A stretch of 64,000 bases of DNA from Hyphomonadaceae bacterium. Its GTDB lineage: Bacteria; Pseudomonadota; Alphaproteobacteria; Caulobacterales; Aquidulcibacteraceae. Location of the stretch: the NCBI GenBank assembly GCA_023384105.1, contig JAHDXR010000002.1, forward strand, positions 62,001-126,000. Direction: 5' to 3'. Numbering within the stretch: position 1 is the first letter of the stretch; every line of letters starts with the position of its first letter. Position numbers and translations under genes: made by a program. Shown piece by piece: positions 10,997 to 24,500 of this stretch. Below the pieces are notes generated by a model, which ran no database searches, was not told the origin of the DNA, and was given only the letters and a program-made list of their open reading frames with translations.

Positions 10997-11091
10997 GCGC
11001 CGTCGCGCTGAATATCGGACGCGCCGCACCTATGGACCGCCGGCGGGTCCATATTGGGGCTTGCGTCGAATTCAGCGCGCGATGCTTTAGC
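10990..11091. repeat. Dispersed MITE-like repeat, short copy
   Basis: The two ends match, in reverse orientation, the ends of the repeats at 35514 and 61195. GCTCTGAGCGCCGTCGCGCT at one end and CAGCGCGCGATGCTTTAGCG at the other form imperfect terminal inverted repeats. The middle is a hairpin with arms TATGGACC (11031-11038) and GGTCCATA (11046-11053), apparently a deleted form of the longer central palindrome. The rpiA stop codon is inside the left tip. Confidence 0.65.
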
Positions 11092-11122
11092 GCCGAGCCG
11101 GCAGCATCGCAACAACCGTTCC

Positions 11123-11623
11123 TCAGCGTCCTTTCCGGCTTGGCGCCGCGGTTTTCTTGGTTTTCTTCGCCGCCCGCTTGCGCGCCGCGCTCTTAGGCGC
11201 CGCACTCTTCGCCGCCGCGCGCTTTTCCGCGCACTTCGGGCAGGCGCAGATGTCTTTTAGGTACTCGTTGAAATAGTTCTTGCCGTAATCGTAGCTCAGC
11301 TCCTCGCCCGGCTTGATCTTGCGCCTGGCGTGGATGAACACGCGGCCCTTGTGGATGTTGGGCTCGCAGTTCGGGCGGCAGGAGTGATTGATGTAGCGCG
11401 CCGTGTTCCAGCGCGGCGCGCCGTCGATGGTCTTGCGGGAGTTGATCTCGAACAGGTACTTCGAGTTCGCCTTCTCTTCCTGCTCCTTGGTGAGTTCGAC
11501 GCCGACATATTCGATGACGCACGCGCCCTTCGGGATTTCGCTCTCGGCGTAAAGGCCGAGCCCGGTCTTCGAACGGCCGACCCGCAAATCGAAGTCACCC
11601 GGCGTATAGCTCTTGCGCGTCAT
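11123..11623 (-). CDS. SET-domain protein-lysine methyltransferase with histone H1-like tail
   Basis: Predicted to transfer methyl groups from S-adenosylmethionine to protein lysines; the target is unknown. The start is set at MTRKSYTPGDFDLRVGRSKT (166 residues). Visible SET motifs are GLGLYAESEIPKGACVIEYVG (SET-N), RYINHSCRPNCEPN (the knot-forming NHSCxPN), the catalytic-tyrosine motif GEELSYDYG, and a post-SET CACPKC that with the NHSC cysteine can bind zinc. The last 35 residues are almost only Ala, Lys, Arg, Ser and Pro, like histone H1 tails. It lies next to the attachment site of the integrated element but outside it. Confidence 0.85.
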   Translation of the reverse strand: MTRKSYTPGDFDLRVGRSKTGLGLYAESEIPKGACVIEYVGVELTKEQEEKANSKYLFEINSRKTIDGAPRWNTARYINHSCRPNCEPNIHKGRVFIHARRKIKPGEELSYDYGKNYFNEYLKDICACPKCAEKRAAAKSAAPKSAARKRAAKKTKKTAAPSRKGR

Positions 11624-11757
11624 CGTCGCTCCGTTCCGAACGCATCCAAGGGGCGTTGCTCTTAGCAGAGCCGCGCGCGCGTGAAAGCCTTGCCAATGGA
11701 TTCGCCGGTGAGTCCGTCTGTTCGGACGGCGGCCTTCTCTCGATTTCGCCGAGCAAA

Positions 11758-11780
11758 GGCTGGCTGGGGTGCTAGGATTC
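11758..11780. repeat. attL core repeat
   Basis: The 23-bp sequence starting GGCTGGCTGGGGTGCTAGG matches 24423-24445 exactly. It corresponds to the 3' part of the tRNA-Gln gene (T-arm start through CCA) plus 3 bp beyond. On this side the match ends and no tRNA follows, so this is the duplicated partial copy. Confidence 0.85.
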
Positions 11781-11813
11781 ACAGTGCCTTGAAACGTAAG
11801 CCCCAGCCGGCCC

Positions 11814-11838
11814 CCGATACCAACACGATGCCAACAAC
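11814..11838. repeat. Candidate integrase arm-type sites, left arm
   Basis: CCGATACCAACA at 11814-11825 is the exact reverse complement of a 12-mer found twice near attR (24233, 24383). A shorter relative, ATGCCAACAAC, follows at 11828-11838. Repeats shared only by the two ends of an element fit integrase or excisionase binding sites. Confidence 0.45.
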
Positions 11839-11892
11839 TCGCTTCGAATCCTTAAGGCCGCGTTTACCTATGCGGCCCAGCATCGGCGCGCA

Positions 11893-12081
11893 ATGCTGAA
11901 AGAAGACGCACGCCAAGCCATCATCCGCGAATGGCTCTCGCTGCCCGCCACAGAGCGCGCGACGCAGCACCAAGCGCACCTGTTCACGATAGGCGCGATG
12001 CAGCGCTATCGCTTCCGCGCGCCGGGCGATCCGCACCAGCACATCATGGGCTGGCTAGCTGCATACACGGGGCGGGATTGA
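11893..12081 (+). CDS. Small hypothetical protein of the integrated element
   Basis: A 62-residue soluble protein (MLKEDARQAIIREWLSLPAT...GDPHQHIMGWLAAYTGRD). The stop overlaps the next ATG by one base, as expected for coupled phage genes. It is the first gene inside attL. No family is recognised and a regulatory role is possible by position only. Confidence 0.6.
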   Translation: MLKEDARQAIIREWLSLPATERATQHQAHLFTIGAMQRYRFRAPGDPHQHIMGWLAAYTGRD

Positions 12082-12332
12082 TGGCGCGGCGCCGGCCGGC
12101 GAATGGCGTGGTTTGTCCGCTGAAATGCAGCGGCGGCCGGGCGGATCGTCAGAGCTATCTTAGCGACGGCCAATTAGAGCGACTGCCCGCCGACGTGCGT
12201 GAGCGGATCGACGGCAGCGGCGGCGCTCAGCGCTGCACCTACTGCGGCGCGGTCTATCTGCCGGGCGGCCCCGTGCTCGGCTCCCTGGATAACGGCGTGT
12301 TGGGCGAAGGTTGGCATCCCTTCAAACGCTGA
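12081..12332 (+). CDS. Small four-cysteine (zinc-ribbon-like) protein
   Basis: An 83-residue protein whose ATG at 12081 overlaps the preceding stop. It has Cys pairs CPLKC near residue 12 and CTYC near residue 52, fitting a single structural zinc site, and otherwise no recognisable fold. A short hairpin with CCCC/GGGG arms and a T-run follows at about 12355-12376 and may weakly terminate this small two-gene unit. Confidence 0.6.
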   Translation: MARRRPANGVVCPLKCSGGRADRQSYLSDGQLERLPADVRERIDGSGGAQRCTYCGAVYLPGGPVLGSLDNGVLGEGWHPFKR

Positions 12333-12428
12333 AACGCGAAAGCGGCCGAAATGCCCCTGTGAGATGGGGATTTTCGACTGCAAAAACAATGTCCCGCAAA
12401 TAATCATAGTATTCATGTCACCGAATAG

Positions 12429-12551
12429 TTGACAAAGACTCCGGTTAATTCGCCGTAAAATCATATACTTACGGCGTTTACCTTGTCTTTTTGCTGGGCG
12501 CCCTGTGGTGCGGGAGCCGTTCTTCTGCTGGAACAAGTAAGTGATTACTTG
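12429..12551 (+). promoter_or_regulatory. Promoter/operator region of the element's late operon
   Basis: The 230-bp stretch 12333-12562 is distinctly AT-richer than its surroundings. It has TTGACA (12429-12434) and TATACT (12464-12469), not optimally spaced to each other. An inverted repeat GCCGTAA / TTACGGC (12452-12458, 12469-12475) covers the likely -10. A second, CAAGTAA-GTGA-TTACTTG (12534-12551), ends on the GGAG ribosome-binding site of the next gene. These look like operators controlling the whole downstream operon. Confidence 0.5.
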
Positions 12552-12562
12552 GAGCGGAAGAC

Positions 12563-13114
12563 ATGTCTGAGCGAGGGAAAGTAAAGGCGAGCGAGGCCGG
12601 CGCCGTGCTCGCCGGGCCGTCCATGAGCGAAGCGGAGGCCACGGGGCGTTTTCGGCGCTGGCAAATGGCTGGGATCATCCCGACCGTGGGGCAGGACGGC
12701 GAAGGCCGCCGCGCGCCGTTCCTATTCGACCAGTCGGCGCCCGCCATCGCGGCCGTTCTGTTCTGGGCTCACGATCACGCGGGCATCACCGAACGCGCGA
12801 TGCTAGCGAGCTTCTGGCGTTTCCTCGCCCATCCCCATCACGAACACGGCGTTCCGGCGATTGACCATGTGCTCGCCGAAGTCATGGCCGGCGGCGCGCC
12901 CGTGCTCGTGCTCACGCGCTGGGGCAACGCGCACACTGGCGAGATTCAGACCACGGCCGCGCTGCGCTTTGACGACGAATACACGCGGCCGATTGAAGGG
13001 CCGTCGCCGGACTTCGATCCCATCGCGGACATCGTTCTTGAATTGGCGCCGCTGCTAGAGCGGTTCGTCGGTGGCAACGTGCTTCCGTTCGCCACGCCGG
13101 AAGCCGTGAACTAA
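12563..13114 (+). CDS. Hypothetical protein, possible winged-helix regulator
   Basis: 183 residues, first gene of the head operon, preceded by GGAG at 8-nt spacing inside a palindrome. Residues 21-55 (MSEAEATGRFRRWQMAGIIP, then RAPFLFD) loosely resemble a MerR/AlpA-type winged helix in which a helix is followed by a strand reading out the promoter. The rest is alpha/beta with no motif. Its 3' end overlaps the portal gene start by 1 bp. It could be the element's activator or a head accessory protein; neither is demonstrated. Confidence 0.55.
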   Translation: MSERGKVKASEAGAVLAGPSMSEAEATGRFRRWQMAGIIPTVGQDGEGRRAPFLFDQSAPAIAAVLFWAHDHAGITERAMLASFWRFLAHPHHEHGVPAIDHVLAEVMAGGAPVLVLTRWGNAHTGEIQTTAALRFDDEYTRPIEGPSPDFDPIADIVLELAPLLERFVGGNVLPFATPEAVN

Positions 13115-14499
13115 TGGCGCGCCGTCGCTCCCTCCTGCAGTCGGCGCGCACGGCGATTGCGCGTGTGCTCGCGCCGGATATGGCGCGCGGCTATGACGCT
13201 GCATCGTCGCGGCGCTTCACCCCGGAAGCGCGCATGGGCCGCACGGCGACGGAAACGCTTGCAGCGGCTCCGCACATGCGGCGGCGCGCTCGCTACTTCG
13301 CAGAGAATGACGCGCACGCGGCGGCCGGCGTCGAAGCGCTCGTAACCTACGCCTGGGGCGCGGGCCCCGTGCCGGCGCACGAAAACAGCGAACTCGTGAC
13401 GGCCTTCACTGAGGAATTTTGGAACCAATGCGACGCAGACGGGCGAACCAATTTCGGCGGACTCGGCGCGCTCGCGTTGCGCGCCGCTATCGTAGACGGC
13501 GACTGCCTCGTCATCCTCCGACAACGCCCGGCTGGATTGTTCTTGCAGCTATTGCCTGCCGAACAGTTGGACGAGTCGCTAACCCGCGAACTTGGTGGCG
13601 GCGCATACATCGCATCTGGAATCGAGTTTAGCGCGGCCGGCGAGCGCGTCGCTTATTGGATTCGTCCGTTCCTGCCGACGCAGCAATTCGAGACTTACGC
13701 GCCCCCGGTTCGCGTGGACGCGGCCGACGTGCTGCATCTCTTCAAGCCGAAAGGCATCGGCCAAATTCGCGGCGTCTCGTGGTTGGCGCCGATTCTGTTG
13801 AAGCTCGCCGATCTGGGCTTGCTCTCCGATGCATTGTTGAAGGGCTTCCAAGTCTCTGCGCTCAACAGCGTCTATTTGATCGACCGCGACGGCGCGCCTG
13901 GCATTCCGTTTGAGGGCGACAAACAAGGCGACGCGCTGGACGTTTCGCTAGAGCCCGGCGCCGCACGCATCTTGCGCGGTAACTGGGAAATGAAGGCCAA
14001 CACGCCGCAGCAAGCGCAGCAGTCCACTGAGTTTATGACGGCGATGATTGAAGAGGTCGCCGCTGGACTCGGCGTGCCTGCGTTCATGGTCAGCGGGAAC
14101 GTGAGCCGCGCGAACTATTCGAGCCTTCGCGCCGCGCTTATCACCTTCAAGGCGCATCTGGAGTCCATCCAGCACAATATCCTTGTGCCCCAGCTTCTCG
14201 CGCCGATCTGGCGCCGCTTTGTGCTGACGCAGCAACTACGCGCCGGCCAAATCGGCGAGATCGCGGACGCCGAATGGCGCTTCCCGGCGATGCCGGAAGC
14301 CGATCCGATGAAACAGATTCAAGCCGTCAAGGTCGCGCTAGACGCAAAACTTATGAGCCGTGCGGAAGCGATTGCAGCGCGCGGCGAAAGTATCGAGCGC
14401 GTGGACGCCGACATTGCGGCCGATCCCCACGCGCAGACCCAAGCCGACGAGTCCGCGGACTCTGACGATGAAGAGAAGGAGCCGGACTCCAATGACTAA
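13114..14499 (+). CDS. Phage portal protein, lambda family
   Basis: Forms the dodecameric ring at one capsid vertex through which DNA is pumped. The 461 residues begin with basic MARRRSLLQSARTAIARVLA. They show the lambda-portal landmarks RAIVDGDCLVILR-like (here RAAIVDGDCLVILRQRP), LQLLPAEQLDE, IASGIEFSAAGERVAYWI, VLHLFKPKGIGQIRGVSWLAPIL and ANYSSLRAALITF. The C-terminus is acidic. The gene overlaps the protease-capsid gene by 8 bp. Confidence 0.88.
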   Translation: MARRRSLLQSARTAIARVLAPDMARGYDAASSRRFTPEARMGRTATETLAAAPHMRRRARYFAENDAHAAAGVEALVTYAWGAGPVPAHENSELVTAFTEEFWNQCDADGRTNFGGLGALALRAAIVDGDCLVILRQRPAGLFLQLLPAEQLDESLTRELGGGAYIASGIEFSAAGERVAYWIRPFLPTQQFETYAPPVRVDAADVLHLFKPKGIGQIRGVSWLAPILLKLADLGLLSDALLKGFQVSALNSVYLIDRDGAPGIPFEGDKQGDALDVSLEPGAARILRGNWEMKANTPQQAQQSTEFMTAMIEEVAAGLGVPAFMVSGNVSRANYSSLRAALITFKAHLESIQHNILVPQLLAPIWRRFVLTQQLRAGQIGEIADAEWRFPAMPEADPMKQIQAVKVALDAKLMSRAEAIAARGESIERVDADIAADPHAQTQADESADSDDEEKEPDSND

Positions 14500-16348
14500 G
14501 CTCGCTTTGCGCGCGGCCACGTTCGCGCCCGATACTTACGACGCCGACACGAACACGATTGAAGTTGTGCTTTCGACGGGCGCCGACGTTCAACGCGCCG
14601 GCTATATCGAGCGCCTGCCGATTGCGAACGCCGACTTGCGCGGCATCGCTGGCGCTCCCGTGCTGGACGCGCACAACCAAGGCAGCACGCGCGCCGTGCT
14701 TGGCGTCATTCAGAAGGCTTGGAAGGCGGCCGGCGAAATCCGCGCGCGGCTCAAACTTTCGTCGCGAGACGACGCGGCCGGCATCGTGCGCGACATCGCA
14801 GACGGCATTCTGCGCAATCTCTCCATCGGCTACCGCGTGAAGCAATGGCGCGATGAAACTAACTCCAAAGGCCAACGCATAAGGACGGCGTTGGCGTGGG
14901 AAATCCACGAGGCGTCCTTTGTCCCTATTGGCGCCGATCCTGGCGCGCAAACTCGGAGTCATTCCATGAAACGGAAAAATGCTCCCGGCGCCGAGACCGC
15001 GCCGGAAATCGAAGCGGATGTGATCGACACGCCCGCGAACGACGACAACGTGGCGCAAACCCGCGCCGCGATCCGCGACGTTTTCAAGCGCGCGTTCCCG
15101 AACGATCTGGCGCGCGCGACTACGGAAGCGGACGCGATCATTGACGCGGACGGCTCTGTGGAAGACGCCAACACGCGCGCGCTCGAAATGCTCACGGTTC
15201 GCAGCAATACTGCGCCGCGCGTGCGCGTCATCAATCCCGGCCCGTCGCCGGAAGAAACGCTGCACCTTCGCGCCGAAGGCTTCGCTGCTCGCTATCTTGG
15301 CGTCGCGTTGAAGAATGACGCGGCGCGCCCGTTCGCGAACCTGAGCGTTGAAGATCAGGCTCGCGACTATCTCGAAGCGAACGGCGTTCGCACGCGCGGC
15401 ATGAGCCGCGAAGCGTTGTTGACGGCTGCGTTCCAAACGCGCGGCGGCCAACATACCACGTCGGATTTCCCGCTCATGCTGGACGTTGGCTTGGGTTCGG
15501 CCGTGCGCGCCGCCTATGAAGCGGCATCGTCGCCGCTCGTGACGCTTTGCCAGAAGGCCACGGCGAACGATTTCCGCACGCAGACGGTGCATCAACTCGG
15601 CGAACTGCCGAAGCTGGGCAAGGTCAGCGAAAGCGGCGAGATCAAGAGCGTGTCGCGCGGCGAAGCGAAAGAGTCGTGGGCGCTGGACACTTACGGCGCG
15701 ATCTTCTCGGCGAGCCGCAAGCTGATCGTGAACGATGCGTTCAATCAGCTTGGCGACTTCGCGCGCGACGCAGGCCAAGCGGCTGCGAACACTACCGCCG
15801 ACCTCGTGGTTGCGGCGTTGACGCAAGCCGGCGGCGCGGGCCCGACGATGGGTGACACCAAGGCGCTGTTCCATGCCGATCACGCCAACCTGTTCGCGGA
15901 AGCGGCTTACGCGGCCATCGACGAAACCGGCATCTCTGCGATGCGAGTCGCCATGATGACGCAAACCGGCGTGGACGGTCAGACGCTTATCAACGTCCGG
16001 CCCGATACGATTGTGGTTGCGCCGTCGCGCTTGACGGAAGCCGAAAAGTTCGTGGCGGCGATTCAGCCCGTCACCACGGCCGATGCGCAACCGATCAAGC
16101 TCACGGTTGTCTGTGAGCCTCGCCTGGAAGCCGTCAATCCGTTTGGCTTCTATCTCGCCGACTCGCGTCACCCCGCGCTCGTGCTGGGCGGCCTTGCCGG
16201 AAGCGAGGGCCCGCAAGTGTCCGCGCGTGATGGCTGGGAAATCCTTGGCCGCGAATGGCGCGTGACGCTGGACGTTGGAGTCGGCCCGCGTGATTGGCGC
16301 GGCTGGGCTTACAACGCTGGCGAAGACAGCAACTCGGCGCTCGCGTAA
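14492..16348 (+). CDS. Prohead protease / major capsid protein fusion
   Basis: A single 618-residue chain. ATG 14492 was chosen over upstream in-frame ATGs because those lie inside the portal gene. Residues 1 to about 150 resemble caudoviral prohead proteases: VVLSTGADVQRAGYIERLPI, LDAHNQ with a candidate catalytic His, and NLSIGYRVKQW with the Ser. An acidic linker (about 155-230) may act as the scaffold. The remainder resembles Mu gpT-type major head subunits (TTSDFPLMLDVGLGSAV, VSESGEIKSVSRGEAKESW, LFHADHANL, IVVAPSRLTEAEKF). Such fusions are known in temperate phages. Self-cleavage would release the capsid subunit. Confidence 0.85.
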   Translation: MTKLALRAATFAPDTYDADTNTIEVVLSTGADVQRAGYIERLPIANADLRGIAGAPVLDAHNQGSTRAVLGVIQKAWKAAGEIRARLKLSSRDDAAGIVRDIADGILRNLSIGYRVKQWRDETNSKGQRIRTALAWEIHEASFVPIGADPGAQTRSHSMKRKNAPGAETAPEIEADVIDTPANDDNVAQTRAAIRDVFKRAFPNDLARATTEADAIIDADGSVEDANTRALEMLTVRSNTAPRVRVINPGPSPEETLHLRAEGFAARYLGVALKNDAARPFANLSVEDQARDYLEANGVRTRGMSREALLTAAFQTRGGQHTTSDFPLMLDVGLGSAVRAAYEAASSPLVTLCQKATANDFRTQTVHQLGELPKLGKVSESGEIKSVSRGEAKESWALDTYGAIFSASRKLIVNDAFNQLGDFARDAGQAAANTTADLVVAALTQAGGAGPTMGDTKALFHADHANLFAEAAYAAIDETGISAMRVAMMTQTGVDGQTLINVRPDTIVVAPSRLTEAEKFVAAIQPVTTADAQPIKLTVVCEPRLEAVNPFGFYLADSRHPALVLGGLAGSEGPQVSARDGWEILGREWRVTLDVGVGPRDWRGWAYNAGEDSNSALA

Positions 16349-16569
16349 TGGCCGCGCTCGACCTCACCGAACTGCAGTCGCTCCGCGATGAACTCGTGCG
16401 CGCTCTCGCACGCGGCGAACGCCGTGTGCGGGACGCGAACGGGGAAGAAGTCGAATACGCGAGCAAAGGCGAAATGACGCGCGCGCTCGCACACATCGAG
16501 TCTCGCATCGCGGCGCTGCAGTCGGCGAGGCCGAACGTCATCAAATTCCAAGTCTCGAAAGGAACCTGA
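16348..16569 (+). CDS. Head-tail joining protein, gpW-like
   Basis: A 73-residue protein. The ATG at 16348 shares one base with the previous stop. The pattern LTELQSLRDELVRALARGER, then EVEYASKGEMTRALAHIESRI, follows the lambda gpW plan of two helices around a beta-hairpin that displays a basic/aromatic edge. It would close the portal and prepare the vertex for a tail. In an element lacking tail genes this implies that a tail is supplied from elsewhere. Confidence 0.75.
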   Translation: MAALDLTELQSLRDELVRALARGERRVRDANGEEVEYASKGEMTRALAHIESRIAALQSARPNVIKFQVSKGT

Positions 16570-16572
16570 GTC

Positions 16573-16938
16573 ATGAAGAACTTTGTCCAACCCGGCGTGA
16601 ACATCACGCTTCCCGCTTCGCCTTATGCCGTTGACAGCGGCGAAGGCGTGCTTGCCGGCCAACTGTTCGGCATCGCCTGCGGCGACGCTGAAAACGGCGC
16701 CGAAGTCACGATCCAAACCGAAGGCGTGTTCGACATCGCCAAGGATTCGGACGACGTGTTTACGCTTGGCGCGCCCGTCTATTTCGACACGGCGACCAAA
16801 ACGGCCCGCTCGCACGGCGACACCGACTCCAATAGCGCTGGCGACTCCGAAGCCTGCATTGGCGTCTCTATCGCGGCGGCCGGCGCCGGCGCGTCCACCG
16901 TCCGCGTGAAGCTCTGCGTCCCTGTGGCGCTGGCCTAA
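16573..16938 (+). CDS. DUF2190 capsid cement/decoration protein
   Basis: 121 residues starting MKNFVQPGVNITLPASPYAV, then GEGVLAGQLFGIACGDAENG. This is the typical DUF2190 opening, a small beta-rich protein found next to capsid genes and thought to bind the capsid exterior. It starts 3 bp after the gpW-like gene and sits in the head operon. The family is recognised by pattern; the role is from genomic context. Confidence 0.75.
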   Translation: MKNFVQPGVNITLPASPYAVDSGEGVLAGQLFGIACGDAENGAEVTIQTEGVFDIAKDSDDVFTLGAPVYFDTATKTARSHGDTDSNSAGDSEACIGVSIAAAGAGASTVRVKLCVPVALA

Positions 16939-16942
16939 CGCA

Positions 16943-17272
16943 ATGGGCGCGGTTGAACACTACCTAGCCGGCCAATTCGTCTCTCACCCTGAGCACGGCC
17001 CCGCGCGCGTGCTTGGGGTGCAGAGCGCCACGGTTGCCGGCGAGCGCCTAGACGTGCTCGCGCTCGCGCTCCTGAGCCCGAACAATGCCGTTGTGCAGAT
17101 TCCGCTCTCGAAGCTCGTGAGCGTTCCGCTGCGCTCTTTGAGCGAGCCGGAAGCGCGTGCGCAGGCAATCGAACAGGATCGGCGCCAGCCGACCCGTCGC
17201 CAGCTTTGGGGAATGTTCGCAGAGCGGTCTAGGCGCAAAGGGAGCATGGTTATCGCCATGCGTCACCGATGA
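16943..17272 (+). CDS. CarD-like RNA-polymerase-interaction protein (short form)
   Basis: 109 residues. Residues 8-70 (FVSHPEHGPARVLGVQSATVAGERLDVLAL, then VQIPLSKLVSVPLRSLSEPE) follow the CarD/CdnL/TRCF RNAP-interaction domain: aromatic-x-HPxHG, a beta-turn with an xxGE element, then VPxxKxxxxxLRxLSEPE. Residues 71-100 (ARAQAIEQDRRQPTRRQLW) match the start of the CarD C-terminal DNA-binding domain, which is cut short compared with the roughly 170-residue host CarD. It may bias host RNA polymerase toward or away from element promoters. Its stop overlaps the next ATG. Confidence 0.6.
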   Translation: MGAVEHYLAGQFVSHPEHGPARVLGVQSATVAGERLDVLALALLSPNNAVVQIPLSKLVSVPLRSLSEPEARAQAIEQDRRQPTRRQLWGMFAERSRRKGSMVIAMRHR

Positions 17273-17394
17273 AAGAAACCGCCGACCGCAGGGATGAATC
17301 TGCGGCCGGCGATGGAGTTTCCCTGACTGCAGAGACCATCCCGACCAAAGGAAAGCCTCTCACGCGAATGAACGAAGGAAGTCAATCGCTATGA
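17269..17394 (+). CDS. 41-residue peptide gene coupled at both ends
   Basis: An ATG at 17269 overlaps the stop of the CarD-like gene (ATGA), and its TGA at 17392-17394 overlaps the next ATG at 17391, again as ATGA. Double ATGA coupling in a compact phage operon argues for real translation. The peptide (MKETADRRDESAAGDGVSL...) is hydrophilic, with no transmembrane segment or motif. No function can be proposed. Confidence 0.5.
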   Translation: MKETADRRDESAAGDGVSLTAETIPTKGKPLTRMNEGSQSL

Positions 17395-17978
17395 CTCTCG
17401 CTAGCCCCAGCCCCGCACACTTGCAACCCGACGCCGAACAAAAATTCGGCTTCGAGAATCTGATGCTGATTGGCGATTATCGCCGCGCCGGCTGGCGTCA
17501 GTGCGCGCAGCGTAACGAGGTCGCGCGCGCCCGTTGGCGCCGTTGGACGGCCGCACTAGAGCCCGCGGATTCCATCTTTCACGAGATGCCGGACGGCGAG
17601 GAAGCCGCGTATTGCGCGGCGTTCGATCTGAGCAAATGGGATTACGCGAAGCACGCGCTTCGCCATGATGCGCCGAAGCCTGATCTAGCGCCCTTGAAGG
17701 CGCTCCCGTTGGCGGACGCCTTCGCGATTTTGGAAAGAGCGCACGCCGTCACTGAGCGCTGGCTGCGCCAAGGCGGCGGCCGTGGCGCACCGTGGCGTGT
17801 GATCGCCGACGCACGCGCGCGAGCCCGCGCTTGCGATCACGTCGATTTCTACCGCGTGCGCGGCGGCAAACGTATTTTCGACCTTGAAGCGAGCGTTCGG
17901 CGCCCGTCGCCGACGCTGGAAGACGTGCAACGCGGCGCCGCGCGCTATCGCCGACACGGGAGACTCACTCATGCGTAG
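17391..17978 (+). CDS. Hypothetical protein preceding the helicase
   Basis: A 195-residue, Arg/Ala-rich soluble protein. It has a mid-region with several tryptophans (RWRRWTAALEPADSIFHEMPD, LSKWDYAKH) and a basic C-terminus. Its end overlaps the SF3 helicase start by 8 bp, so it is probably a replication-module protein (primase partner or regulator). I see no primase or nuclease motif. Confidence 0.6.
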   Translation: MTLASPSPAHLQPDAEQKFGFENLMLIGDYRRAGWRQCAQRNEVARARWRRWTAALEPADSIFHEMPDGEEAAYCAAFDLSKWDYAKHALRHDAPKPDLAPLKALPLADAFAILERAHAVTERWLRQGGGRGAPWRVIADARARARACDHVDFYRVRGGKRIFDLEASVRRPSPTLEDVQRGAARYRRHGRLTHA

Positions 17979-19317
17979 CGTTGAAGACCTTTTGGGCCCG
18001 GAGCCCGACGAACGCGAAGAATCCCGCAACGCCGCAATCGCGCGCCTGAATAAGCGCTTCGCCGTTGTAGCGCACGGCGGCCAAGTCCGCGTGATCCGCG
18101 AAGATGGCGCTGGCGGCTTCACTATGGAGTCCGTGCGCGCCTTCGAGGATTGGCATGCGAATGATGTGATTTGGGAGAAAGGCAAGGCCGGCCCCGTCGC
18201 GACTCCCGTGTCTTCCGTTTGGTTCGCCAGCCCGAAGCGCCGACAATACGAACAGATTGTGCTTGATCCGCGCGGCCGGCGCCGTGGCGCTTACAATCTG
18301 TGGCGCGGTTTCAGCTTCGAGCCCGAACGCGGCGACTGCAGCCTGTTCCTAGATCACTTGTTCGATAACGTCTGCGGCGCCGATGAAGCGCTTTACACCT
18401 GGCTTGTCGGATGGATGGCGCATCTTGTGCAACGCCCCCATGAGAAGCCGGGAACGTCTGTTGTGTTGAAGGGCGAAAAGGGAGTCGGAAAATCCATCGT
18501 CGGCGAAATTCTGGGCGCCTTGATCGCGCGCCATTTCGTGACGGTGACGCAGCCGCGCCACCTAATCGGCAACTTCAACAGCCATTTGGCAACCGCCGTG
18601 CTCGTGCTCGTGGAAGAGGCATTCTGGGCCGGCGATAAAGTCGGCGAAGGCGTGCTGAAAGACCTAATTACCGGCCCGCGTATCATGCTCGAAAAGAAGG
18701 GCGTGGACGCAATCCCGCTCGACTCCTTCCATCGTTTTATCATCACGTCGAACGCCCATTGGGTTGTGCCGGCGACGCATGACGAACGCCGCTTTGCCGT
18801 GTTCAACGTGGGCGACGCACACCGGCAGGACGGCCCTTACTTCGAGGCGATCAAGCGCGAGATGGAGAACGGCGGCTATGAGGCGTTGCTGCACTATCTG
18901 GGGCGCTTCGATCTATCCCGCGTGGACGTGCGCCGCGTGCCGAACACTGAGGGCTTGACCGAACAGAAGCTCGCCGGGCTGCGCAACGTGGAAGCGTGGT
19001 GGTGGGAGACGTTGGCGGCCGGCGATCTAACCGATTGCCGAGATGGCGCCGATTGGGGTGGCGCGATCCGCGTGGAAGCCGACGATCTGCGGACCTATTA
19101 CCGGACGTGGATGCAGCCGCGCCGCACGCATGGCGACATTCTGGGGGATGTGCATTTTGCGAAGCGCTTCCGCGCAATGTGCCCCGTGACCGAACGTCGG
19201 CGCGTGCGGATCAATAAGGAACTGTCCTACGTTTACGAATTGCCGCCGCTCGCTGAATGTCGCGCGGCCTTCGAGTCGTGGTGCAATAGCGCCATTGATT
19301 GGGAAGACGCAGCCTAA
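17971..19317 (+). CDS. Superfamily 3 phage helicase (primase-helicase C-terminal type, DUF5906-like)
   Basis: 448 residues. It carries Walker A GEKGVGKS at about 168-175, a Walker-B-like hydrophobic strand AVLVLVEEAFW at about 211-221 and an SF3 motif C RFIITSNAHWVVP at about 251-263, then an arginine finger region HDERRFAVF. This matches the helicase half of P4-type and DUF5906 primase-helicases. No N-terminal primase domain is evident. It would unwind the element's origin. The iteron-like repeats begin 21 bp after its stop. Confidence 0.82.
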   Translation: MRSVEDLLGPEPDEREESRNAAIARLNKRFAVVAHGGQVRVIREDGAGGFTMESVRAFEDWHANDVIWEKGKAGPVATPVSSVWFASPKRRQYEQIVLDPRGRRRGAYNLWRGFSFEPERGDCSLFLDHLFDNVCGADEALYTWLVGWMAHLVQRPHEKPGTSVVLKGEKGVGKSIVGEILGALIARHFVTVTQPRHLIGNFNSHLATAVLVLVEEAFWAGDKVGEGVLKDLITGPRIMLEKKGVDAIPLDSFHRFIITSNAHWVVPATHDERRFAVFNVGDAHRQDGPYFEAIKREMENGGYEALLHYLGRFDLSRVDVRRVPNTEGLTEQKLAGLRNVEAWWWETLAAGDLTDCRDGADWGGAIRVEADDLRTYYRTWMQPRRTHGDILGDVHFAKRFRAMCPVTERRRVRINKELSYVYELPPLAECRAAFESWCNSAIDWEDAA

Positions 19318-19337
19318 CAGAGCGAAAGAGCGCGAGT

Positions 19338-19547
19338 GTCCCTAGTCCGTTCCTAGTGCATGCCATTCACTAGGAACGGCCAAAACCCGCATGAATAAAG
19401 GCGTTTATCGTCTCTGTTCCTAGTGTTCCTAGTGTTCCTAGTAGATATTCGCATACGCGCATGCACGCACACGCGCGCACGCACACGCGCGCATACATTC
19501 CGACCAAAACACTAGGAACGGAACGAACACTAGGAACAGTCTAGGTT
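19338..19547. repeat. Iteron-like repeat cluster flanking an alternating purine-pyrimidine tract (candidate replication origin)
   Basis: The 9-mer GTTCCTAGT occurs exactly four times forward (19349, 19416, 19425, 19434) and three times inverted (19369, 19511, 19529). A one-mismatch copy lies at 19338. Copies at 19416-19442 are perfect tandems, and the two right-hand inverted copies are spaced 18 bp. Copies at 19347-19358 and 19368-19379 form a perfect 12-bp-arm palindrome with a 9-nt loop. Between the clusters, 19451-19498 is 48 bp of strict purine-pyrimidine alternation, prone to Z-DNA or melting. Next to the helicase, this fits an origin. It is not a CRISPR array. Confidence 0.7.
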
Positions 19548-19598
19548 CTTCCCGAAGGCCCGGCGTCGGGGGCAGCACTGACCCCGGCAAACCAATGG

Positions 19599-19624
19599 AA
19601 ACTCAAAATTTCGTTTTTGAGTTT
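19599..19624 (+). terminator. Hairpin upstream of small terminase (terminator or packaging structure)
   Basis: AAACTCAAAA (19599-19608) and TTTTGAGTTT (19615-19624) form a perfect 10-bp stem with a 6-nt loop. It separates the helicase/iteron region from terS. The stem is AT-only apart from two pairs and the T-tail is short, so it may be a weak terminator or a protein-binding site near a cos or pac region. Confidence 0.4.
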
Positions 19625-19671
19625 TGGCGCCGGGTGGACTGCAGCGCCGGCTTAGGGCTAGCGCTGGAGCC

Positions 19672-20076
19672 ATGACCAAAGCGCGCGCCCACCGCTCGAA
19701 AGCCGAACTTCTCGGCGACGCCAAACCGGCGCGCGAGCCCGGCAACTCGCGCGGGCCCATGCGCGGCTCTGGCGTCGGCGGCCGATCTGCGAATCCGTTT
19801 CGAGATCAGCTTTACCAAGCGCAGACGCGCATCGCGGAGTTGAAGGCCGAACAGTTGGCCGGCCGGCTCGTGCTCATCTCCGATGTGGAAGAGCAATGGG
19901 CGGCCCGCGTTGTCGATTGTCGGCAGCGGCTCCTAGCGGTGGCGTCGCGCGTCGGCGCCAAGCTGGGGCTTAATCGCGAGCAAGTGGAGGTCATAGACTC
20001 GGAAATCCGGGCCGCCTTGACCGCCCTGGCTGCGCAGGGAGGCGTTTCCGATGCCGGCGACCCTCCGAGAGCCTGA
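19672..20076 (+). CDS. terS: Phage terminase small subunit (Nu1-like)
   Basis: A 134-residue DNA-packaging protein that would recognise the packaging site. The ATG at 19672 is preferred over a TTG 48 bp upstream. The N-terminus is basic and flexible (KARAHRSKAELLGDAK). Residues 45-125 have the small-terminase helical signature: QTRIAELKAEQLAGRLVLIS, then EEQWAARVVDCRQRLLAVASRV, then EIRAALTAL. Its 3' end overlaps terL by 26 bp. Satellites often keep their own TerS to redirect packaging to their DNA. Confidence 0.75.
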   Translation: MTKARAHRSKAELLGDAKPAREPGNSRGPMRGSGVGGRSANPFRDQLYQAQTRIAELKAEQLAGRLVLISDVEEQWAARVVDCRQRLLAVASRVGAKLGLNREQVEVIDSEIRAALTALAAQGGVSDAGDPPRA

Positions 20077-21886
20077 GACGGCGAAGCGCGATCCTGGGCC
20101 GAGTCTCGCCGTTCTCGCGATTGACGCTAGAGCCGTCGCGAATTTCGCCCCGCCGCCGAAGATCAGCACGGCCGATTGGATCGAGTCCAACGTCACCCTG
20201 CCGTCCGACGTGTCCGACACGCCGGGACTTATGGCGCTGTTTCCCTATCAGCGCGGCATCGCGGATGCGTGCGACGATCCGGCGATTGAGCGCGTGACGT
20301 GGCAGAAGTGCGCGCGGATCGGCGCGACCTCGCTCATGGTGGCCATTGTCGCCAGCTTCGTGAAAAACAACCCCAGCAACATCCTGGCAGTTCAACCGAC
20401 GCAGGACGATGCGCGCGACTTCATGGTTTCGACCGTGGAGCCCGTTTTCGCGGCGAGCCCGTCCTTGGCCGGACTCCTCGTGCAAGACGAAAAGAAGCGC
20501 GACACGATTCAGAGCCGGCGCTTTCCGGGCGGGAGCTTCAAATGCGTTGGCGCGGCGCCGCGGAATCTGCGTCGCCACTTCGTTCGCGTTCTCATGCTGG
20601 ACGAAACGGACGGCTATTTGCCGAGCCCGGAAGGCAATCCGCTCAAGCTCGCCGAAAACCGAACCCGCACGGCGCGCGACCGTCTCATTTTCCAGGCGAG
20701 CACGCCGACCGACGCCGAAACGTCGAACATCGCCCGCGCGTATCGGGAGTCGGATCAGCGCATTTATGAGACGCCGTGTCCGCATTGCGGCGAGCACTTC
20801 GAGCCCCGCTTTGAGCATTTGAAATGGGATAAGAGCGAAGACGGCCGCCACATGCCCGAAACCGCGCATCTCGTATGCCCGGCCAATGGCTGCGTGATTG
20901 AAGAGTCGAGTAAGTCGGCAATGGTCGCGGCCGGCCGATGGCGCGCGACGGCGCCGCATGTGAAGGGACACGCGGGCTTCAAATGCAGCGCGCTCATTTC
21001 GACCATCGAGCATGCGCGCTGGGCCAACATCGTCGGCGAGTTTCTGGAAGCCAAAAGCGACCCCGAACTATTGCGCGTGTGGACGAACACGCTCCTAGGC
21101 GACGTGTTCGCGGATCGCAGCGGCGAAGGCTTGGACGAAAACGCTTTGGCGCGTCGCGCCGAACGGATCGGACTGCAGGCCATACCGGAAGACGTGCGAC
21201 TGCTTACGGCCGGTGTAGATGTGCAAGCGGATCGGCTCTGCATCGTGACGCTAGGCCATTCGGCGACTCAAATGTTCGCGCTCGCAGATGAAACGATCTG
21301 GGGAGCGCCGACTGCAGAGCAAACTTGGCGCGAACTAGACGATCTGTTGAAGCGTCGCTTTCCGCATCCTCTAGGCGGGATGCTGGGCTATGACGCCGCC
21401 GCCATCGACTCCGGTGACGGCAATGTCACCGATATTGTGTATTCGTTCACGCGCCCGCGTTTTAGCGGCCGTCGCGTGGTCTCCATCAAAGGCGACGCCG
21501 GCAACCGCGCGCTAATCGAGCGCGCAAGCAAGCCTTGGCTTTGGATTGTTGGCGTGGACGGCGGGAAGAGTCGTTTGTTCGGGTTACTCGAACAGCCGGG
21601 ACATATCCGCTTTTCGCAGGATTTGCCGCCGCGCTTCTATGAGGAATTGTGCAGCGAGCGGCGCGTGACGTTCTACAAATCCGGCCAACCCCGCCGACGC
21701 TGGGAGCGCATCAAGGGCATGCGAGCGGAAGCGCTTGACGCCTTTGTTTATGCGATGGCGGTTCGCGGACTCGTCGGCGTGAATCTGACCACGCGGGAGA
21801 ACGAATTGCGCGCGCTCGTGAAGCCGAACGCGCAACAGACGGTTTTCCGCTCGAAATGGATGGAGGGTTCTCGTGGGGGTGCGTAA
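20051..21886 (+). CDS. terL: Phage terminase large subunit, GpA family
   Basis: A 611-residue packaging ATPase and nuclease. The Walker-A-like WQKCARIGATSLM near residue 95 lacks the classical GKT, as is usual for GpA proteins. The Walker B is RVLMLDETDGYLP near residue 180. A zinc-type insertion follows (CPHCGEHF and CPANGC near 240-280). Nuclease acidic residues lie in LTAGVDVQADRL, LGYDAAAIDSGDG and EALDAFVYAMAV. The length and domains are complete. The gene is coupled to both neighbours. Confidence 0.9.
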   Translation: MPATLREPETAKRDPGPSLAVLAIDARAVANFAPPPKISTADWIESNVTLPSDVSDTPGLMALFPYQRGIADACDDPAIERVTWQKCARIGATSLMVAIVASFVKNNPSNILAVQPTQDDARDFMVSTVEPVFAASPSLAGLLVQDEKKRDTIQSRRFPGGSFKCVGAAPRNLRRHFVRVLMLDETDGYLPSPEGNPLKLAENRTRTARDRLIFQASTPTDAETSNIARAYRESDQRIYETPCPHCGEHFEPRFEHLKWDKSEDGRHMPETAHLVCPANGCVIEESSKSAMVAAGRWRATAPHVKGHAGFKCSALISTIEHARWANIVGEFLEAKSDPELLRVWTNTLLGDVFADRSGEGLDENALARRAERIGLQAIPEDVRLLTAGVDVQADRLCIVTLGHSATQMFALADETIWGAPTAEQTWRELDDLLKRRFPHPLGGMLGYDAAAIDSGDGNVTDIVYSFTRPRFSGRRVVSIKGDAGNRALIERASKPWLWIVGVDGGKSRLFGLLEQPGHIRFSQDLPPRFYEELCSERRVTFYKSGQPRRRWERIKGMRAEALDAFVYAMAVRGLVGVNLTTRENELRALVKPNAQQTVFRSKWMEGSRGGA

Positions 21887-22277
21887 GCCTTGCGCCATCT
21901 GCGGCCGGCCCTTCATCGCGCGTCACGGCGCGCTGACGTGCTCCGAGGCCTGCCACAAAGAACGGAAGCGCAAGCAAGGCGCGGAAAATCAGCGGCGCCG
22001 GCGCGCTGAGAAGCCGGAGGAATGCAAAGCCGTGCGCGATGCGTGGCGCGCTCGAAACAAAGAGCGCGAAGCAGGCTATATGCGAGCGTCGCGCGCGGCC
22101 GATCCCCAGGGCCATAAGCTATACATGCGCGTCTATCGTGAGATGCACAAAGAACGGCTTCGCGATTATGGGCGGCAGCGGCGTGAGCGCGCAAAGCCCG
22201 AAGGCAAATATTGCGACTCTGAAACCGGCGTGCGAGAACGTTTCGCTGGGAGAATTGCGGATGCGATTGAAGACTGA
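21873..22277 (+). CDS. Small basic zinc-finger-like phage protein
   Basis: 134 residues from a GTG start that overlaps terL by 14 bp. The N-terminus CAICGRPFIARHGALTCSEAC has a CxxC / CxxxC pattern typical of treble-clef zinc fingers of HNH-like phage proteins. The middle is a long, highly charged helix rich in Arg, Lys and Glu. No HNH catalytic triad is visible, so a DNA- or RNA-binding role is the most that can be said. Confidence 0.65.
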   Translation: MGVRKPCAICGRPFIARHGALTCSEACHKERKRKQGAENQRRRRAEKPEECKAVRDAWRARNKEREAGYMRASRAADPQGHKLYMRVYREMHKERLRDYGRQRRERAKPEGKYCDSETGVRERFAGRIADAIED

Positions 22278-22578
22278 AAACGGTCAACTCACGCTTGGCA
22301 GCGCATACAAGATGATCGTCTGGGGGTGGCTCCTCTCTTGGGGTGCCTTCATGATTCCCATCTTGCTCATCATCACGGTTGGAGCACTGCTGAGCGGTGA
22401 GATGAACGTGAATGGCGAGATGGTCTACGGCGTCGGCCCGGTTTTCATGGTGATCTTGCCGTTTCTAGTTATGTTGCCAATCATCATTGTGATGCATGCG
22501 TTTATGTTCGGCGCGTTTCTCACTTTCGGATTGTGGCTATACCGGCACTGGCGGCCGTTGAGCGTCGATCCAGAGTAA
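22261..22578 (+). CDS. Small two-helix membrane protein (element accessory gene)
   Basis: 105 residues from ATG 22261, overlapping the zinc-finger gene by 17 bp. Two long hydrophobic segments (WLLSWGAFMIPILLIITVGALL and a run of about 40 residues from FMVILPFLVMLPIIIVMHAF) predict inner-membrane insertion. A holin is conceivable from size and position, but no endolysin is nearby. It may instead be cargo such as an exclusion protein. Confidence 0.6.
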   Translation: MRLKTENGQLTLGSAYKMIVWGWLLSWGAFMIPILLIITVGALLSGEMNVNGEMVYGVGPVFMVILPFLVMLPIIIVMHAFMFGAFLTFGLWLYRHWRPLSVDPE

Positions 22579-22585
22579 TCTCCCT

Positions 22586-22897
22586 TCATTCGGGGCGATT
22601 TAACCGCTGACGTATAGCCACCACGCCAAAGCCAGGTATCGCAAAGGCAACAGCGCCCAAGACGCCCCAAAGCATGAATCGATCAATCGAGAGATAGAGA
22701 CCCGATGCGCTCCAAACGTAGGGTGTTCGGAATGGAGAGAAGAGCCCGGCGAACAAAAAGCATGCGAACACCCCGGCGGCATAGATCAGGGCGAACGTAA
22801 AGTCCGGGCGGGACCAAAGCTTTAGCCAGCCGAGAAAATACAGTCCGACCAGCAAGAGTGGTCCGGTGTATTTTAGGGCGAAGACGATGACTTCCAT
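22586..22897 (-). CDS. Small membrane protein, opposite strand (candidate cargo gene)
   Basis: About 103 residues from ATG 22897; a GTG at 22909 would add four. Three hydrophobic segments are visible (LLLVGLYFLGWLKLW, LIYAAGVFACFLFAGLF, LWGVLGAVAFAIPGFGVVAI). It runs against the packaging operon and lies between terL and the integrase, where temperate elements often carry exclusion or defence genes. No family is recognised. Confidence 0.55.
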   Translation of the reverse strand: MEVIVFALKYTGPLLLVGLYFLGWLKLWSRPDFTFALIYAAGVFACFLFAGLFSPFRTPYVWSASGLYLSIDRFMLWGVLGAVAFAIPGFGVVAIRQRLNRPE

Positions 22898-22979
22898 TGG
22901 ACCCGTCACGACGCATCAAAGACAAGGGAAGTGGTCTTTAGCAGGCGCGACAGTTGAGGCCAACTTTTGGGGCATGAAC

Positions 22980-24233
22980 TCAGCCCAGCAATTCCGCCGT
23001 TGTCCGGCCGCGCGCGCGTGCTCGATACAGGTCTAGCTTGTCTGCCCACCATTGCAGAAGCTCGCGACGCTTGGGGAGATACTCGGCGCTGTTGTAAGCA
23101 CGATGCACCTTGCCGCCGACCGCGTGAGCTAGCTGCGCTTCGATCACTTCCGGCGCCCACATGCCGGACTCGTTGGCGATAGTCGAAAACGAGCCGCGGA
23201 ATCCGTGCATCGTCGTTTTGTTGCGGTAGCCCATCGCGTAGCAGTGAAACAGCATCGTGTTGTTGCTCATGTGCCCGCGACCGCCGAACGCCGCAGGAAA
23301 GAGATAGTCGCCTTTGCCGGTTCGCTCATGCAATTCGTGAAGCAACGCGATCACTTGGCGGCTTAGCGGGATCAGGTGTTCGCGATCCGCCTTCATCCGA
23401 TCTTCTGGGAGACGCCAGAGAGCTTTGCGCGTGGAACGTAGGTGTTCAAATTCATCCCAACGCGCACCGATAGATTCCGATGTGCGCGTGGCCGTGTAGA
23501 TCGTGAGAAGCATCGCTAGCCGCGTTTCGGGCTCGCAAGTGCTCTTGTCCAAGTCCACGAGGAACGGGCCGATCTGTTCGGCCTTAAGCCGCTTGAACCC
23601 CTTCGTTGGGGGCCGTTTCGGCAGGCGGACCTTGGGCGTGGGGTCGCTCACATCGTCGGCCGCGTGAGCGAAGACTGAGGCAATGTGCTTTTTCAGCCGG
23701 TGCGCCGTCTCGACCGCGCCACGGTCCACGACGCGCGTTAGGGCGGCTTCAATGTCATTCTTTGTGATGCGGCCGATGGGCATGGCGCCGATTTCCGGGA
23801 ACACGTCATCTTCGAGCCGCGATAGGATCAGCCCGGCGTATTTGGGAGCCCAATCCGAAGCATGGAGCTTGTGCCACGCTCGCGCGACGGTCTCGAAGGT
23901 GGACTGTCCGTCAGTCGCCGGTGCCGTGCGTCCCGGATCGCGCCCTTCCTTCAACGCCAGCTTGGCGGCTTCCCGCTTGGCGCGCGCATGGGTTAGCCCG
24001 TTCGTCTGTGGATCATAGACGCCAAGCGCGAGCGTCTTTTGTTTGGGTGGATCGCCGAACCGATACGCGAGGCGCCAGAGCTTCGAGCCGTTCGGATTCA
24101 CGAGCACATAGAGGCCGCCGCCGTCGCTCTCTTTGTATGGCTTCGCGCGCGGTTTCAGCGCGTCCAGCTTCGTTTGATTGAGCGGGATTCGTGGCGCTTT
24201 CCGCTTCGCTTGAGAGGGCGATTTCGTCGGCAT
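22980..24233 (-). CDS. int: Tyrosine recombinase/integrase, P4 type
   Basis: Integrates the element at tRNA-Gln. The start is put at MPTKSPSQAKRKAPRIPLNQ (24233) rather than 13 codons upstream. An N-terminal DUF4102-type arm-binding domain (LDALKPRAKPYKESDGGGLYVLV, LALGVYD) is followed by a core-binding domain (WAPKYAGLILSRLEDDVFPEIG). The catalytic domain has IYTATRTSESIGARWDEF (Arg), a likely Lys in LPEDRMK, MHGFRGSFST (HxxR), LAHAVGGKVHRAYN (His and tyrosine region) and RRELLQWWADKL. A 12-bp repeat (24233-24244) overlaps its start codon, suggesting autoregulation. Confidence 0.9.
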   Translation of the reverse strand: MPTKSPSQAKRKAPRIPLNQTKLDALKPRAKPYKESDGGGLYVLVNPNGSKLWRLAYRFGDPPKQKTLALGVYDPQTNGLTHARAKREAAKLALKEGRDPGRTAPATDGQSTFETVARAWHKLHASDWAPKYAGLILSRLEDDVFPEIGAMPIGRITKNDIEAALTRVVDRGAVETAHRLKKHIASVFAHAADDVSDPTPKVRLPKRPPTKGFKRLKAEQIGPFLVDLDKSTCEPETRLAMLLTIYTATRTSESIGARWDEFEHLRSTRKALWRLPEDRMKADREHLIPLSRQVIALLHELHERTGKGDYLFPAAFGGRGHMSNNTMLFHCYAMGYRNKTTMHGFRGSFSTIANESGMWAPEVIEAQLAHAVGGKVHRAYNSAEYLPKRRELLQWWADKLDLYRARARGRTTAELLG

Positions 24234-24394
24234 GTTGGTATCGGTTTTCCGGCGCCAACAAAGTGCCAACAATTCGGCTCCCGCGACGCGAGAAACCCCT
24301 TAGCAGGTCTAGGTTAAGATGTGCCGCAGAAGACGAAATTAACCGCGATCCAACTGAAATCAGTCAACTTTTCCGTGACTGTTGTTGGTATCGG
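24233..24394. repeat. Candidate integrase arm-type sites, right arm
   Basis: TGTTGGTATCGG occurs at 24233-24244 and 24383-24394, and inverted at 11814-11825. Two shorter relatives containing GCCAACAA lie at about 24254 and 24263-24272. The set brackets the integrase promoter and lies within 200 bp of attR, as arm-type sites do. Confidence 0.45.
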
Positions 24395-24422
24395 CGACTG
24401 CGGAGCGAGCCCGTAAAAGAAG

Positions 24423-24445
24423 GGCTGGCTGGGGTGCTAGGATTC
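24423..24445. repeat. attR core repeat within tRNA-Gln
   Basis: An exact 23-bp copy of 11758-11780. It overlaps the 3' end of the tRNA-Gln gene, so integration keeps the tRNA intact on this side. Confidence 0.85.
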
Positions 24446-24500
24446 GAACCTAGGAATGGCGGTACCAAAAACCGCTGCCTTACCGCTTGGCGACACCCCA
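24426..24500 (-). tRNA. tRNA-Gln (anticodon TTG)
   Basis: Seventy-five nucleotides including an encoded CCA. Acceptor TGGGGTG pairs with CACCCCA. The anticodon stem GCGGT/ACCGC encloses the loop TTTTGGT, giving anticodon TTG. The T-loop is GTTCGAATC within CTAGGTTCGAATCCTAG. It is the integration target of the element on its left. Confidence 0.95.

Follow-up and report, generated by a model that had tools for sequence, protein, structure and literature searches.

Capsid-forming phage-inducible chromosomal islands (cf-PICIs) are integrated elements of ~14 kb on average whose genes specify the small and large terminase subunits (TerS and TerL), portal, protease, capsid and connectors. They have no tail genes, and descriptions of them state that they depend on the tails of a helper phage (PMC10690885, PMC10803314, PMC11389934). 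The capsids of the published cf-PICIs are reported to belong to family PF05065 and to be accompanied by an HNH gene (PMC13230959). The Streptomyces satellite phages MulchRoom and MiniFlayer are likewise described as encoding TerS, TerL, portal, capsid and adaptor, MulchRoom being thought to use the tail of its helper (PMC10690885). In Vibrio, a cf-PISP (TG54) and a PISP (TG93) are presented as tailless satellite-plasmids with head genes, of 15.8 and 11.1 kb, TG93 carrying a capsid, a protease, a small terminase and a MerR-like regulator (PMC13230959); since the TG93 capsid is placed there among satellite-encoded capsid E proteins, satellite capsids outside PF05065 are already in print. The capsid-forming satellites published so far are mainly those of Gammaproteobacteria and Firmicutes (PMC10803314), and they are called widely distributed, with a mention of predicted ones in Actinomycetota (PMC10690885). 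Our literature search, made by title and start of abstract, gave no such satellite described for Alphaproteobacteria; the primary cf-PICI element lists, outside that search, may include some. Here, we analyze a ~12.7-kb element in a 64,000-nucleotide stretch (the window; positions 62,001 to 126,000 of contig JAHDXR010000002.1) of the genome of a Hyphomonadaceae bacterium (GCA_023384105.1), which we take, with a probability of about 0.85, to be a capsid-forming phage satellite.

The element spans positions 11758–24445 of the window and is integrated at a tRNA-Gln gene. Its ends are marked by a direct repeat of 26 nt, of which 25 are identical and 23 form an exact core (copies at 11755–11780 and 24420–24445; exact attachment (att) cores at 11758–11780 and 24423–24445). 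The right copy overlaps the 3′ end of the complete tRNA-Gln (TTG) gene (24426–24500, reverse strand), which is adjoined by a gene for a tyrosine integrase with three domains (22980–24272, reverse strand; PF22022 at 1.1e-23, PF13356 and PF00589). Integrated and equipped with integrase and att sites, the element thus falls within the ~10–15 kb of this class of satellites. Used as a DNA query, the tRNA-Gln flank matched 29 of 30 genomes of the same genus, its own included. Element sequence was found in none of the 19 same-genus tRNA-Gln loci that were fetched (L248–L266, 19 genomes), and in 16 of these 19 the tRNA match and a homologue of the SET gene of the left flank are separated by −21 to 781 nt. 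These empty sites indicate that the insertion was a gain at one site. An IMG/VR contig of 11,119 nt (2713896720_000001) carries a TerL and a capsid identical to those of the window.

Gene assignments, made by Pfam and PHROGs scans of the window proteins, yielded a head and packaging set that is complete by homology: capsid, protease, portal, connector, TerS and TerL, all on the forward strand. A portal of the lambda family (13114–14499; PF05136, Phage_portal_2, 2.1e-64; phrog_21) is followed by a gpT-like fusion of prohead protease and major capsid protein (14495–16348; PF25209, Phage_capsid_4, 7e-34), which also matches PF04586 (Peptidase_S78, 8e-05), PF10124 (Mu gpT, 1.5e-04) and phrog_4523, ‘major head and protease’ (1.5e-134), and whose family profile aligns with part of the PDB capsids 9jod and 8rkc. 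Next come a gpW-like head–tail adaptor of type Ad1 (16348–16569; phrog_2545, 6.9e-14) and a DUF2190 head cement or decoration protein (16573–16938; PF09956, Phage_cement_2, 3.5e-22). Further downstream, TerS (19672–20076; phrog_57, 8e-10) precedes a GpA-type TerL with ATPase and nuclease domains (20051–21886; PF05876, 6e-73; PF20454, 9e-68). The head and packaging genes mostly abut or overlap, and none of the core genes has an inner stop. Between the two blocks lies a DUF5906 replicative helicase of superfamily 3 type (17971–19317; PF19263, 1.6e-21; phrog_1156), and between helicase and TerS an array of seven exact GTTCCTAGT iterons on both strands (19349–19537), against 0.07 expected in the window and with 0 of 100 shuffles reaching seven, which is probably the replication origin.

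None of the window proteins scanned with Pfam and PHROGs matched a tail, baseplate, tape-measure, lysin or CI family, the gpW-like match being a head–tail adaptor. Pfam, PHROGs and repeat analysis thereby agree with the initial annotation, which had outlined an att-bounded 12.7-kb unit with integrase, helicase, iterons, portal, capsid fusion, gpW, DUF2190, TerS and TerL and without tail, baseplate, tape-measure, lysin or CI genes. It had further called the unit a cf-PICI-like satellite, and of this proposal the capsid-forming satellite part is supported. Like a cf-PICI such as EcCIEDL933, the element is integrated and combines a head and packaging set with no recognised tail genes. Unlike a cf-PICI, it has a fused gpT/Phage_capsid_4-type protease–capsid, a GpA terminase, a lambda-type portal and an alphaproteobacterial host; its capsid gives no PF05065 match, Pfam recognising Phage_capsid_4, Peptidase_S78 and Mu-like_gpT in one protein. 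As the capsid family differs, membership in the cf-PICI family is not established, and we view the element as part of a new lineage of capsid-forming satellite, built on a head set different from that of the published cf-PICIs. MulchRoom and MiniFlayer, compared here by description only, differ from it in their linear genomes with ~1-kb terminal repeats, their virulent helpers and the lack of an obvious replicase, whereas TG54 and TG93 are described as episomal, with PF05065 or PF03864 (capsid E) capsids and Vibrio hosts. The gene content is shared with tailed phages, namely Rhodobacter phage RcMamaDuck and Stenotrophomonas phage S1 (capsid identity to that of the window 35% and 28%), which have a protease–capsid fusion, portal, GpA-type TerL, gpW and DUF2190-type genes, but these phages, of 41.8 and 40.3 kb, place gpW before the portal and tail genes after the head genes.

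Within the order Caulobacterales, the window capsid matches 17 of 398 genomes at E 1e-30. The same arrangement is found in six of the 17, its own included, and consists of a gene for a 183-aa protein (12563–13114, forward strand, in the window) directly upstream of the portal, then portal, capsid, gpW, cement, replication, TerS, TerL and integrase. Besides the element of the window, this first arrangement is represented by five copies in four other genomes of the order and by one copy split over two contigs in a fifth (L038/L039). The five copies sit at tRNA-Ser (L006), tRNA-Cys (L007), tRNA-Leu (L025) and tRNA-Asn (L026 and L029). Lengths delimited by att are 12.7–13.3 kb; the repeats are short in L006 (15 nt) and L025 (14 nt), and a search with exact 14-mers gave no repeat for L026. 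The replication gene varies among elements of this arrangement, and L025 and L026 have different repeated 9-mers in the region equivalent to the iteron array. A second gene order, with terminase first and integrase last, is seen in three tRNA elements of 10.2–12.6 kb (L027, L028 and L031). The remaining eight of the 17 genomes hold tailed-type or unclassified loci, and the one scanned with the tail library (L032) has tail genes. Two prophage-type loci (L035 and L036, family f3) carry a palindromic motif of 18–20 nt, ATGCGAACG(C/G)CGTTCGCAT or nearly so, repeated at several places. A terminase-first element of 10.6 kb with 17-nt repeats at tRNA-Glu is also present on a 2.2-Mb replicon of Paracoccus versutus (L054, pBEN 908573–938363, positions 11634–22223), with no genes listed in PLSDB.

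In wider searches, the window capsid used alone gave no close relative in genome contigs, and a ten-member capsid profile matched 17 of 385 genomes of the class at E 1e-40. The profile also hit genome contigs at 266 places and viral contigs at 488 or more. We examined the best 80 of each of these two sets; four of the 80 genome-contig loci repeat loci already collected. In 44 of these 80, the capsid is enclosed by a direct repeat located at a tRNA and 14 nt or longer, with copies mostly 10–13 kb apart, and 39 of the 44 repeats reach 17 nt or more. Among 1435 random control windows, 62 had a repeat of this minimum length and nine one of at least 17 nt, the longest (51 nt) probably overlapping a real att site, so that a few of the short att repeats may be due to chance. 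The gpW gene follows the capsid in 49 of the 80 loci, 33 of them with a detected tRNA att; it precedes the capsid in 14, none with att, where the att of a long prophage would fall outside the stretch. A portal without gpW was found in four loci (one with att) and no portal in 13 (ten with att). Tabulated elements number 48, nine of them of the no-portal class, with lengths of 9,548–13,568 and a median of 11,582; this table omits the four duplicates (L078, L079, L082 and L085), which are included in the counts of 44 of 80 and 33 of 49, as well as L114 and L126, and the right end of L094 was set by hand. The typical gene order is TerS–TerL–(cargo)–X–portal–capsid–gpW–cement–(short ORF)–integrase, ORF denoting an open reading frame. 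Relatives are carried by strains of Stappia, Aureimonas, Asticcacaulis and Celeribacter, among them Stappia indica SN13-18 (L100), Aureimonas glaciei (L113) and Asticcacaulis tiandongensis (L090). Among the viral contigs, gpW follows the capsid in 71 of 79 loci of classified layout, and one of the 85 loci tested, the terminase-first L196 (11,498 nt), in which gpW was not recognised, shows a terminal repeat of 127 nt, the pattern expected of a closed circle of ~11.4 kb.

The accessory ORFs of these elements were likewise scanned for tail genes. For the 54 accessory ORFs of the first arrangement, Pfam returned 24 families, with no tail or lysis type among them, and PHROGs no tail family among the 25 of 51 families listed. 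A PHROGs scan at E 1e-4 of 144 accessory ORFs from 28 elements, a subset of 153 ORFs of 65–420 aa from which nine replication-like, integrase-like or doubtful ones were omitted, gave no tail type among the 25 of 33 families listed apart from one gpW-type adaptor; the listed families include the excisionase/regulator phrog_66 (5 of 144 ORFs) and several HNH families. In the tailed relatives L147 and L032, used as positive control, the same library did recognise tail genes, namely tail terminators, minor tail proteins and distal tail proteins, and in L147 also a tape measure. The 48 elements contain 32 unassigned ORFs of more than 420 aa, of which 20 match primase-helicase or AAA proteins, five are tape-measure-like and confined to the no-portal class (L120, L125, L129, L131 and L146), and seven match no query. 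Pfam assigned three of the last seven, as a caspase, an integrase and a SEC-C protein. In a batch of 37 members, a single one matched a tape-measure family; it is likely to be a 606-aa ORF of L030 (22 bits to a tape measure), a locus that was set aside.

Phylogenies, rooted at midpoints, separate the satellites from tailed phages. In the portal tree (64 rows), 35 satellites form one side of a single branch (100/99; 100% of 200 bootstrap trees). The TerL tree (63 rows) splits them into two groups, one of 6 rows and one of 30, both supported at 100/100 and with no tailed row inside. In the capsid tree (75 rows, quick method), 37 satellites and three no-portal rows stand together with a support of 93 in the SH-like approximate likelihood ratio test (SH-aLRT), or 38 rows with 95. 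Synteny points the same way as the portal tree, gpW preceding the portal in three annotated tailed phages and following the capsid in most satellites. Compared with L006, the ratio of non-synonymous to synonymous change (dN/dS) is 0.20–0.29 for the head and packaging genes (dN/dS pairs: portal 0.25/1.21, capsid 0.26/0.91, TerL 0.26/1.33, cement 0.19/0.89). Taken together, trees and recurrence support the view that the element belongs to an old lineage of such satellites spread over Alphaproteobacteria. They also bear on what the initial annotation had expected of its relatives. The tailless unit of 12–13 kb does recur in related genomes, although not at tRNA-Gln as supposed, since the relatives use many other tRNAs (Ser, Cys, Leu, Asn); this independent recurrence at four other tRNA types is joined by the detected att sites of the gpW-after-capsid loci. 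Close relatives with a full tail did not appear among the loci fetched, the tailed relatives being a separate lineage in the portal tree, and in the TerL and capsid comparison with tailed phages that it had called for, the capsids cluster and TerL falls into two tail-free groups.

These data allow the satellite to be weighed against other origins of a tailless head locus. That it is a prophage which decayed by losing its tail and lysis genes is suggested by related tailed prophages with the same capsid family, of which L032 is from the order and L147 from Sphingomonadales. Against this stand the full-length genes, the dN/dS values, the recurrent layout, the separation of satellite portals and capsids from the tailed ones, and the position of gpW, which in most satellites comes after the capsid. 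Among the loci fetched, in a search that was not exhaustive, the head block was not seen joined to a tail in any close relative. Selection and recurrence therefore imply that the head genes are kept without a tail, which decay does not explain, and we consider this origin, which the initial annotation too had argued against, largely refuted and very improbable. Still slighter is the chance that the locus resembles a gene transfer agent (GTA) or a domesticated head locus packaging host DNA. GTAs are reported to occur in Alphaproteobacteria (PMC12946183), and contig C22 of the host genome itself has a GTA-like cluster of capsid, portal and tail genes, including one Phage-tail_3 match above cut-off. 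The element, unlike a GTA, has its own integrase and att sites, along with iterons, TerS and a patchy distribution at different tRNAs, which argues for a mobile element, probably one that packages itself.

An autonomous tailless virus, leaving and entering cells by another route and needing no helper tail, would also encode head and packaging genes, and both the circular appearance of the related contig L196 and the lack of a sheath or PhageMin_Tail match in the host genome would suit it. The element retains, however, a gpW-type adaptor, whose known job is to ready the head for the tail, and the scans revealed neither lysis nor entry genes; we regard such a virus as unlikely, if somewhat less so than the two preceding alternatives. 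The capsid-forming satellite thus remains our preferred interpretation, and several observations weigh against it. Helper dependence, packaging, particles and induction are features that we infer. The host genome yielded neither a Phage_sheath_1 nor a PhageMin_Tail gene, so that no resident helper is evident. Within the element, no CI- or Stl-type repressor and no second connector of FII or neck type were found. The PHROG families outside those listed (8 of the 144-ORF scan and 26 of the 54-ORF scan) may include tail types, four of the ORFs above 420 aa (L092, L112, L115 and L144) match neither a query nor Pfam, and TerL forms two groups, not one.

A helper need not be resident: none of 17 resident prophages is reported to have mobilised the cf-PICI EcCIEDL933 at detectable frequency (PMC11389934). 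In the host genome, a region of about 5.9–18.1 kb on contig C16 (L284) has a Phage-tail_3 match under the cut-off (E 0.002) in a 1163-aa frame and another ORF that is weakly tail-tube-like (29 bits); it could be a tailed prophage and a possible candidate helper. A PF05065 search of the same genome matches contigs C22 and C12, not the element. The first genes of contig C12 (L283, 91–5142) encode a capsid of family PF05065 (1.2e-29) and a portal of HK97 type, and an integrase follows; the contig edge possibly truncates here another head-only element, of HK97 type.

For the satellite, we propose a cycle in which infection by, or induction of, a tailed helper phage would lead the element to excise and to replicate from its iteron origin. 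The element would assemble small heads from its own protease–capsid fusion, load them with its own ~12.7-kb DNA using a portal and a terminase that it also encodes (the latter of lambda type, probably cos), and close them with gpW, whereupon helper tails and helper lysis proteins would complete and release the particle.

Two further proteins are probably the transcription controls of the element. The confident AlphaFold2 (AF2) model of the 183-aa protein (predicted local distance difference test score, pLDDT, 84.7) has no PDB structure match at E 1e-3; in BFVD, MerR-like helix-turn-helix proteins are among its best matches (E 0.02–0.1, best 0.022), none at E 1e-3. The protein has no match at E 0.1 in 50,697 phage records, and its assignment as a known head protein is therefore unsupported. 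Its gene occurs in six of 398 genomes of the order, exactly those with the first arrangement, of which it is a signature. A profile of its family recognises a member upstream of the portal in 19 of 39 elements, and none among 691 control ORFs; the other 20 elements have an ORF upstream of the portal that the profile does not recognise. The 109-aa protein encoded after the cement gene (16943–17272, forward strand) matches PF02559 (2.9e-05), and its AF2 model resembles Mfd and CarD (E 1.7e-04 to 7e-04). Fold and Pfam thus favour a CarD/Mfd-like RNA-polymerase-interaction domain, and we reject a second head–tail connector at this position.

The remaining genes of the element are small. At its left end, the forward strand encodes a 62-aa ORF (11893–12081) and an 83-aa ORF with CxxC pairs noted by eye (12081–12332), both without Pfam match. 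The helicase is preceded by a 195-aa protein (17391–17978, forward) with a homologue in L029. Downstream of TerL lies a 134-aa cysteine-containing protein (21873–22277, forward) with weak homologues after TerL in L007 and L029; Pfam finds no HNH domain in it, and four of the 54 first-arrangement ORFs match the HNH family phrog_1271 (best E 3.8e-05). Two accessory ORFs of 105 aa (22261–22578, forward) and 107 aa (22586–22909, reverse) are by eye probable membrane proteins. No AlpA-type Pfam match was found among the window ORFs.

Among the relatives, terminase-first elements can carry genes on the opposite strand in a slot between TerL and portal (L113:6003–7424, L134:5692–6864, L130:5403–7670), where Pfam recognises a caspase (Peptidase_C14), a Schlafen AlbA_2 domain and SEC-C proteins, a content reminiscent, by sequence, of anti-phage defence cargo. 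The no-portal class includes tRNA elements of ~11 kb, several in Hyphomicrobiales, with a related protease–capsid fusion, a tape-measure-like protein and an integrase (L125, L131 and L146, also L120 and L129, perhaps L030). PhageMin_Tail is matched at 2e-21 to 4e-25 in three of them, and L120 and L129 are weakly linked to the tape measure of L131; neither our own profiles nor annotated-phage queries found a portal or TerL in these elements. They may be satellites for which capsid and tail ruler are both self-encoded. A small extrachromosomal record of Rhodovastum atsumiense (L286, ‘plasmid RHOAph’, NZ_OW485609.1, 10,690 nt) encodes a protease–capsid fusion, ParA, a toxin–antitoxin pair and a DUF3987 protein with no annotated portal or terminase, and is satellite-plasmid-like.

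Overall, these results indicate that the same life strategy is reached in Alphaproteobacteria from a different head and terminase set. The lineage looks common, given the satellite gene order in 49 of 80 genome-contig and 71 of 79 classified viral-contig loci among the best 80 of each. With this lineage, the way in which the tails of other phages are joined to a head-only element by one gpW adaptor becomes testable, and small database ‘proviruses’ of this type may need re-labelling. We tentatively suggest, at somewhat less than even odds, that Alphaproteobacteria hold an ancient, self-standing radiation of head-only satellites, which would have split from tailed phages once, as in the portal tree. 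Its members would since have reached Caulobacterales/Hyphomonadaceae, Rhodobacterales, Hyphomicrobiales, Sphingomonadales and Acetobacteraceae, exchanging their replication modules and acquiring defence-like cargo. Another kind of tRNA element, of ~11 kb, with its own capsid and tape measure and no recognised portal or terminase, would stand alongside. If this holds true, the virion would be shared out between satellites and helpers according to two or more complementary schemes, of which one perhaps sets tail length besides head size.

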